The notes below the pieces were generated by a model that was not told the origin of the DNA, did not search any database, and worked only from the letters and a program-made list of their open reading frames with translations. From Bacteriovoracaceae bacterium (GTDB taxonomy: Bacteria > Bdellovibrionota > UBA2394), in NCBI GenBank assembly GCA_028287765.1, contig JAQBPA010000137.1, positions 1 through 40,931 of the forward strand: a DNA stretch of 40,931 nt, read 5' to 3'. Position 1 is the stretch's first letter. The number at the start of each line of letters is the position of its first letter. The position numbers and the translations under genes are program-made. Positions 29,406 to 30,926 of the stretch are shown piece by piece.

Positions 29406-30425
29406 TTAAACTGTTCGCTTTCTAACGGCAACATTGGCTTTTGGGTCCGCGTTCGTCGTCGGAGGAGTTCCATCAGGTGGGGAAAATCGGGGCCGACAAT
29501 CTGACGAATGTAAGCACCGATTTCCCGTTTTGAATTGAGGTGCCAAGAAGCTTCGATGAGGTGCTTGCGTATGGTAATACCGGTGATGGGCACTGCAGAG
29601 GGTGATGAGGTTTTCAATTTGATTTTGTCCTCCTGATGCGACCGGAATCTTATGATGGATTTCAACGAATGCGGAAGAACTGCATTTTCTTCCGTGAACG
29701 GTATAGCCGCACTGACCGCGGTCTCTCTGGAAGACTTGGTGCTTGAGACTTGCTTTTAAAGGCTCTCTTTTCATGACGTGAACCATTCCGCCTGTTTTTA
29801 CTTTGCCTGGGCAAAGTACCTTTTTCTCGGCACGATCGGCTTTCACGACAGGATCTTTTCTTTCCAGGTAGAGATCTAAGGAGGCATCAAGTGCTTCTTC
29901 CATGGAGACGGGCTTTCGCTCGGAACTCGAGAGCAGCGTTTGAACTCTCTTTAGCTTACTCAGAAAAGCGTCTGAAATGCCGAGCTTTAAACAAAGTCGA
30001 TCTTCGGAGACTTGCCGAGTGGATTCTCTCACCTCTTCCGGCTTTTCTTTCACCACCTCTCGCTCTAATTCTCGTTTAGATAAATGAGAGGCCTTTCGAA
30101 TCCACTCGTCTTTGTTTTCGGTTGTAATCACTGAAACGATACGAGCAGCTTTAGATAAAGAGAGATTCCCAAGAAGGATTTCTTTTTTAAGTTCAGGAAT
30201 CTGAACGGCTTTACGAGCAACGGACATCAGAAGATACGAATTCGAATCGGAAAGAAGCAGAGCAGTCTTCGCATATTCAAAAAGGCTCGGAAATCCAAAA
30301 GCTAGGTAGACTTTCTCACGATCCACTTCTTGTAAGATCGAAAGAAGATCGGATTCCAGTTTTCGAAAGTTTTGAGAAAGAAGCAGTGCTCGTTCATGAA
30401 TCGCTTTTTGCTGAGAAGTAATCAT
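29406..30425 (-). CDS. HNH endonuclease, apparently with a lost stop codon
   Basis: The protein has 339 residues. The N-terminal ~150 residues are helical (VYLAFGFPSLFEYAKTALLL, LSLSKAARIVSVI) as in multi-copy DUF222-like/HNH proteins. The HNH nuclease domain is at about 228-285: ECG-type zinc region GQCGYTVHGRKC, EIHHKIP (H257/258), N272 in NQIENLITLCSAHH, and H280/281. The last 35 residues (305-339) are odd, Pro/Arg/Thr-rich, and are translated from a repeat hairpin. In the second copy of this sequence at 30676 the matching codon is TGA where this gene has TTA (29513-29511), so the ancestral protein probably ended at Cys304. The ATG has AAGGAG eight bases upstream. Role unknown: a DNA nuclease, possibly tied to movement of the element. 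Confidence 0.85.
   Translation of the reverse strand: MITSQQKAIHERALLLSQNFRKLESDLLSILQEVDREKVYLAFGFPSLFEYAKTALLLSDSNSYLLMSVARKAVQIPELKKEILLGNLSLSKAARIVSVITTENKDEWIRKASHLSKRELEREVVKEKPEEVRESTRQVSEDRLCLKLGISDAFLSKLKRVQTLLSSSERKPVSMEEALDASLDLYLERKDPVVKADRAEKKVLCPGKVKTGGMVHVMKREPLKASLKHQVFQRDRGQCGYTVHGRKCSSSAFVEIHHKIPVASGGQNQIENLITLCSAHHRYYHTQAPHRSFLAPQFKTGNRCLHSSDCRPRFSPPDGTPPTTNADPKANVAVRKRTV
29458..29555 (-). repeat. HNH-linked hairpin repeat, copy 1
   Basis: These 98 bases at the 3' end of the HNH gene match 30676-30774 on the other strand at roughly 80 percent identity by hand alignment. They contain an imperfect hairpin (29479-29526, arms GGGAAATCGG and CCGATTTTCCC on the minus strand). 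The repeat covers the last coding triplets of the ancestral HNH gene and its lost stop codon. Confidence 0.8.
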
Positions 30426-30633
30426 AGAAAAATCTCCTTTATTAAAAAAAGCCTAACACAGCTTTTTCAACAAACGAGACGCACCCCAGATTCAAAGAAA
30501 ACGTGAAAACAAAAAATAAAAAAATGAAAAGAAAAAAACGTCCCAGAAGCAGAATCCCTTCGTTATGAAATATTTTCAAACACGAAAGCAAATTCAAAAA
30601 AAGAACTCACAAAATGACTGTCAAATAAAATAA

Positions 30634-30720
30634 TGCAAAAAAATATTTTCACTTTGCCCAGGCAAAATTCGAGAGCGAAGCTGCTTGGCACTCCAATTCA
30701 AAGCGGGAAATCGGTGCTGA
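30634..30720 (+). pseudogene. Internally deleted remnant of an HNH endonuclease gene 3' end
   Basis: This frame runs from after a TAA at 30631 to the TGA at 30718-30720. From 30652 it reads LCPGKIRERSCLALQFKAGNRC-stop. The LCPGK part matches residues 204-208 of the intact HNH protein (shared DNA at 30652-30666 and, inverted, 29802-29815). The RSCLALQFKAGNRC part matches its residues 291-304. The HNH motif lying between them has been removed. About 237 bases, exactly 79 codons, are missing, so the frame is kept. It has no start codon or nuclease motif and is a fossil or a miniature non-autonomous derivative of the same element. Confidence 0.65.
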
Positions 30721-30774
30721 CATTCCCAAAGGATGTCGGCCCCGATTTCCCCCCACATATGGAACTCCCCCGAC
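30676..30774 (+). repeat. HNH-linked hairpin repeat, copy 2 (well-preserved hairpin)
   Basis: This is the second copy of the repeat, inverted relative to copy 1. It holds a strong hairpin at 30705-30751 with 19-base arms (GGGAAATCGGTGCTGACAT and ATGTCGGCCCCGATTTCCC): 17 Watson-Crick pairs, one G-T pair and one mismatch, with a nine-base loop. The ancestral HNH stop codon TGA (30718-30720) lies in the left arm. Confidence 0.8.
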
Positions 30775-30926
30775 TCGACTCCGAACCACTCAAAACCCCC
30801 AAAGTGATTGCCAACAAAAATCAGTCCCCTATTCTGGCAACTTAAGATGAGTTTCTCAATATTATTGACTCTTAAGCGCGTCCGCTTTGGGTCTTTAGGA
30901 GATCTGTGATATTTTTATAAGTATCT

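Follow-up and report, generated by a model that had tools for sequence, protein, structure and literature searches.

To our knowledge, all well-understood bacterial transposition, casposase aside, is carried out by DDE, HUH, tyrosine (Y) or serine (S) enzymes. HNH proteins are usually regarded as passengers or as RNA-guided partners. REP13E12 of mycobacteria (13E12, DUF222-HNH) is a dispersed repeat of ~1.4 kb that combines an all-helical domain with an HNH domain, and its mobility mechanism is unknown. ParB and Noc bind palindromes of 14-16 bp as dimers; parS is TGTTTCACGTGAAACA. Here we describe an HNH nuclease gene bracketed by inverted, hairpin-bearing repeats in a stretch of 40,931 nucleotides (the window) from a Bacteriovoracaceae bacterium (phylum Bdellovibrionota; contig JAQBPA010000137.1 of assembly GCA_028287765.1). 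The element resembles repetitive extragenic palindromes (REPs) and their REP-associated tyrosine transposases (RAYTs): its imperfect palindromes are dispersed, many of them solitary and most intergenic, and some flank the gene of a DNA-cutting enzyme as inverted pairs. It also resembles IS200/IS605 and IscB elements, being small and hairpin-ended with the 3' end of a nuclease open reading frame overlapping the element end. We consider it probable that the element belongs to a dispersed, selfish, REP/RAYT-like family whose ParB-like/HNH nuclease acts on a palindrome, P, and on the hairpin ends.

We observed that the unit is repeated throughout the genome of the window (G000), a draft of 2.84 Mb in 270 contigs that is 76% complete. 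The HNH protein has about 12 clear matches there, at 87-100% identity, and the end repeat about 20 strong ones, found at both ends of every complete HNH copy. The first-pass annotation of the window had proposed searching for the hairpin in this way, reasoning that a dispersed mobile unit would also leave repeats without an HNH gene. Such pieces exist: C126 carries an end repeat plus P, and on C4 lies a solo hairpin whose fold is a single palindrome of ~100 nt (z-score -5.6). The repeats are not the local duplication that it named as the alternative; they are dispersed across G000. Five complete HNH copies have inverted ends of ~98 nt on both sides (contigs C244, C44, C196, C265 and C67), and contig ends cut further copies, leaving left parts on C125 (which may be truncated), C198 and C204 and right parts on C17, C49, C66 and C52. 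Provided that the left and right parts come from the same copies, at least 9 copies of a ~1.3-kb unit exist, with unrelated flanks, alongside the HNH-less pieces. The unit begins with a hairpin-bearing terminal repeat, followed by P, the promoter region with the N-terminal domain, a second P, the HNH domain and the other terminal repeat.

The second palindrome, P (ACTTTGCCCRGGCAAAGT), lies just inside the 5' end repeat and again inside the linker of the HNH gene. When G000 was scanned with one mismatch allowed, nearly all matches fell within element copies, and one further match was a solo P (C49:560). C126 ends at P; the similarity of C125 is lost at the centre of its internal P, a weak observation because it adjoins a contig end. 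P was absent from the first-pass annotation and is a more conserved candidate for recognition than the terminal hairpin. The upstream P of the C198 copy is interrupted by a 60-nt element whose inverted ends, CTTGGATTTACACAAT, are 16 nt long (L009, about 1570-1670).

Comparison of seven HNH paralogues gave a mean nonsynonymous divergence (dN) of 0.04, a mean synonymous divergence (dS) of 0.57 and dN/dS ratios of 0.05-0.11, which indicates that the proteins of the family are under strong purifying selection and suggests that the copies are old and that each has been kept functional. Between copies the left ends are 94% identical, the upstream region 80%, third codon positions 73% and sequence outside the element 37%; gene conversion between ends may be the cause of the end similarity. 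Almost all copies retain AAATCGGGGCCGACA and AAATCGGTGCTGACA in the two hairpin arms, with two mispairs fixed among them. In C265, the most complete copy, the inverted similarity continues outward for a few dozen bases more. C265 and C126 share, at 100% identity, an 85-nt sequence located beyond their element ends (L190 43-127, L183 1-85). Some flanks bear GGCCTGACCCC, possibly a separate REP family, and a conserved GGGGTCAGG-type motif, a possible RAYT site, occurs close to elements in a few copies only. Searches for phage or plasmid carriage gave no match beyond one weak match to a viral contig.

Domain searches of the protein matched only HNH families and no DDE, Y, S or HUH transposase domain. 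The HNH residues do not vary among 27 relatives, and the domain is closest to the HNH domains of group II intron maturase, McrA and IscB. The N-terminal domain matched HTH_ParB in 8 of 27 family members (best 5.8e-4), and in a whole-genome HTH_ParB scan the HNH genes ranked directly below true ParB, with two open reading frames passing the cut-off. When an AlphaFold model of the N-domain was searched with Foldseek, the only coherent matches were the DNA-binding domains of ParB, Noc and Spo0J; the first AlphaFold model was poor past residue 200. Profile and model together suggest that the N-terminal domain is probably ParB-like.

Next to related HNH genes we found lineage-specific palindromes at positions equivalent to P. 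Among 241 genomes of the phylum searched at E <= 1e-30, the family was present in 86, about a third, and in 63 of 142 genera. The palindromes are CTGTCCCGGGACAG in G001 (at -239, in the linker and 13 bp past the gene), TGTGCCCGGGCACA in G002 (upstream and linker), TCTTCCCGGGAAGA in G004 (at -250), both ACTCGCGCCGGCGCGAGT (-222, linker) and ACTCTTCCCGGGAAGAGT (-234, linker) in G053, and ACAGTTCTTAAGAACTGT in G042 (at -321/-272 and about +15). This last 18-mer occurs nine times in G042 (control, 0): seven occurrences are at three HNH genes, which it brackets at both ends, and two are solitary. A member in G101 (locus L270) has a linker palindrome, CTGTTCACGTGAACAG, that is close to parS. We counted perfect palindromes of 14 bp or more and compared the counts with shuffles (200 in the discovery set). 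The 29 loci of the discovery set contained 27 palindromes versus 3.2 expected, and the same core appeared twice in 7 loci but in 0 of 200 shuffles. An independent set of 59 new loci contained 30 palindromes versus 6.5 expected (maximum 14), with the same core twice in 4 loci and in none of the shuffles; the flank control held 9 palindromes in 90 kb. In this set 13 of the 18 in-gene palindromes lay at 0.6-0.8 of the gene, and those upstream peaked at -200 to -300. Some long, A/T-flanked upstream palindromes of G001 and G002 look terminator-like and were excluded from the evidence. These counts indicate that P is general to the family and co-varies with lineage.

P also lies exactly where modules meet one another and where the element meets unique DNA. 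G053 has 22 perfect P sites, among them modules of P plus X without HNH, X being a palindromic module of ~400 bp. At no fewer than seven loci, at least, P divides unique DNA from X; the stretch seen at these loci contains no HNH gene, and most end at contig ends. Elsewhere in G053 unique DNA is joined through P to the HNH module (L131, L132), and at L219, which lacks the N-terminal module, the tail of X is joined to the HNH module exactly at P. Similarity between copies in G053 and G055 ends at the gene end, so that the last codons and the stop are supplied by flanking DNA. In G053 the centre of P has repeatedly received a 147-nt element, near-identical between insertions, whose inverted ends are 32 nt long (AGTGTGTTTGGAAAGTCC...); it is present at L128, L127, L119 and L131-L133, in both orientations and with CCGG on either side; in several HNH genes the reading frame is open through this insert.

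A second arrangement was observed in G042, where more than 15 copies of an HNH gene from a more distant subfamily (266 aa) are interspersed with arrays of a nested palindrome of ~150 nt. Of 36 palindrome clusters, 20 have an HNH gene within 1 kb and some are isolated; 16 of 24 HNH genes have a cluster, and 0 of 14 Y1 transposase genes are near an HNH-linked palindrome. The pattern is that of REP/RAYT but built around an HNH gene, and with clusters at HNH genes and none at Y1 it fits the earlier suggestion of REP/RAYT logic served by an HNH enzyme. The ~150-nt palindrome (L143, L149) has a central hairpin TTTGCCC...GGGCAAA, and its half-site equals that of P in G000, despite HNH proteins that are about 27% identical. 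Y1 genes were present in all 13 genomes tested. The five in G000 (L192-L196) are divergent, with other flanking sequences unrelated to the HNH ends, and searches of G000 found no transposase bearing the ends of the element. In G006 and G025 a RAYT-like Y1 gene directly adjoins the family HNH gene (L157 863-1219, L197 821-1426).

Within the window (Table 1), the inverted repeat of ~98 bases described at first pass as ~80% identical was recovered at 83% identity (29458-29554 versus 30677-30774), and the repeat search gave arms that are 90% and 85% complementary. Its better copy is, as had been described, a hairpin with 19-base arms (30705-30723 and 30733-30751, 89% complementary), which folds more stably than 200 of 200 shuffles (z-score -4.4). 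The ancestral stop codon had been placed in this copy; it sits instead in the weaker copy at the gene end, a degraded hairpin (z-score -0.7). Sister copies stop after residue 304 (position 29514 in the window), and since codon 305 is TTA in the window and TGA in the sisters, the window gene extends 35 codons further. An intrinsic terminator was rejected as a reading of the terminal hairpin: the terminator scan lists neither end, its sole match being the internal P. A search of Rfam matched no known RNA, HEARO included.

Table 1 Features of the HNH element in the window.
Feature	Position	Strand	Basis
HNH nuclease gene, window reading frame, 339 aa	29406..30425	-	Pfam HNH E 1.8e-8
Terminal inverted repeat at 3' end of HNH gene, with degraded hairpin	29445..29555	+	repeat search
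Ancestral stop codon, TTA in window, TGA in sisters; within 3' hairpin	29511..29513	-	copy alignment, open reading frame ends
HNH catalytic domain, residues 239-285	29571..29711	-	HH...N...H invariant in 27 relatives
Palindrome P, internal copy, ACTTTGCCTGGGCAAAGT, linker between N-terminal and HNH domains	29800..29817		repeat search, genome motif scan
ParB/Noc-like helix-turn-helix region, about residues 48-127	30045..30284	-	HTH_ParB profile, hhalign, Foldseek
Palindrome P, upstream copy, ACTTTGCCCAGGCAAAAT, 226 bp 5' of start codon	30651..30668		repeat search, genome motif scan
Terminal inverted repeat past 5' end of HNH gene	30676..30787	+	repeat search; 94% identical among copies
Imperfect hairpin, 19-nt arms, inside 5' terminal repeat	30705..30751	+	repeat search, folding

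In the mechanism that we propose, the ParB-like N-terminal domain would bind P as a dimer and the HNH domain would nick or cut at P or at the hairpin ends. Repair or re-ligation would then copy or move P-bounded segments to new sites and delete internal ones, leaving half elements and solo hairpins behind. A further signal, by which ends are recognised or protected, might come from the terminal hairpins in G000, as the first-pass annotation had suggested for the hairpin, and from the palindromic X module in G053. With P-bounded segments copied or moved by this enzyme, the element would spread like a REP/RAYT pair or a homing gene, by means of a different enzyme. More tentatively, with the chances somewhat against it, the elements may form a new class of bacterial mobile element with the ParB-like/HNH nuclease as its mobility enzyme, one that recognises a lineage-specific palindrome of 14-30 bp bounding the element and dividing its own gene, and that moves, deletes and shuffles palindrome-bounded modules, hairpin-only derivatives included. 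Several points weigh against an HNH-driven element. Binding, cutting and transposition are all things we infer from sequence, and deletion from P to P could come from host recombination between 18-bp repeats. Were the enzyme to cut intact P, its own gene would be a target, and one must then suppose some regulation, methylation or specificity for single strands. Structural support for the ParB likeness is weak, by hhalign (E 3e-4, probability 40%) as well as by Foldseek (TM scores normalised by target length reached 0.64, with E > 1). Many loci have no perfect palindrome, among them all nine G086 copies. No target-site duplication is evident by eye in the G000 copies, whose outer borders are ragged.

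The main rival explanation is mobilisation in trans by Y1 enzymes (RAYT/TnpA), which would cut and join the hairpin ends while the HNH gene, a passenger like IscB or TnpB in IS605-type elements, aids retention. Every one of the 13 genomes examined encodes Y1 transposases, hairpin ends that overlap the 3' end of a reading frame are reminiscent of tnpB/iscB, and two genomes have a Y1 gene beside the HNH gene. However, not one of the five G000 Y1 loci carries the terminal repeat, and the palindromes vary with the HNH lineage and sit within the HNH gene. Because neither the G000 nor the G042 Y1 loci carry HNH-linked repeats, this explanation is weakened, and we regard it as unlikely.

Slightly less likely again is that P serves as an operator through which the nuclease regulates its own gene; the protein might then act in defence or be a domesticated host function, and its copies would stem from ordinary duplication. 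The fixed position of the upstream P (-200 to -320 bp), the strong purifying selection on every copy and the binding of palindromes by ParB-like domains would suit an operator, but this reading would leave unexplained why P also occurs within the linker or 3' of the gene and borders modules that lack HNH, and why there are solo hairpins and copies dispersed among unrelated flanks. P and the hairpins might also be hot spots of recombination or insertion unrelated to the HNH enzyme, with host recombination shuffling the modules. Small elements do sit in the centre of P (147 nt in G053, 60 nt in the C198 copy of G000) and 18-bp repeats are able to recombine, yet P differs between lineages while being common to the positions of one element, so a factor that co-varies with the element is needed. 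We consider hot spots very improbable.

Among known systems, REP/RAYT is matched in that the palindromes are dispersed with and without the enzyme gene and enriched around it. The element is not a member of that group because its enzyme differs: it encodes an HNH protein with a ParB-like domain and not a Y1 HUH protein (PF01797). It also has a second, perfect palindrome within its coding sequence. Like a classical insertion sequence it has terminal inverted repeats, but no known transposase (DDE, Y, S or HUH) lies inside. IscB is the best NCBIfam match of its HNH domain, but the protein scores 29 bits against a cut-off of 175 and lacks a RuvC or PLMP domain, and the element has neither a HEARO/omega RNA match in Rfam nor a linked TnpA, unlike IscB/OMEGA systems. 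Free-standing homing endonuclease genes likewise spread through a specific, often pseudo-palindromic site. Homing sites, however, are normally destroyed by insertion, whereas intact P copies bracket and interrupt this gene, and no intron or intein context was seen for the HNH genes. As in ParB/Noc-parS, the N-terminal domain resembles a ParB DNA-binding domain and some P sites are parS-like (L270), but the protein lacks a CTP-binding domain, is fused to a nuclease and is multi-copy. The nearest multi-copy HNH repeat is REP13E12, from which the element differs in that DUF222 (PF02720) was found in 0 of 27 family members at E <= 0.5; we know of no paired P palindromes in REP13E12.

A literature search of open-licence papers found no description of an HNH-palindrome element; REP13E12 is mentioned in PMC10589994. 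An HNH enzyme with its own palindromic sites thus appears to be an undescribed pairing, and it recurs phylum-wide with palindromes that differ. Should mobility indeed prove to be the work of the HNH protein, the elements would form a new class. An HNH family without RuvC, tied to co-varying palindromes at borders and internal joints, offers a testable case for HNH-driven mobility, and its natural protein-palindrome pairs could be used to study the evolution of DNA specificity. It may also help to account for other multi-copy HNH repeats, such as REP13E12.
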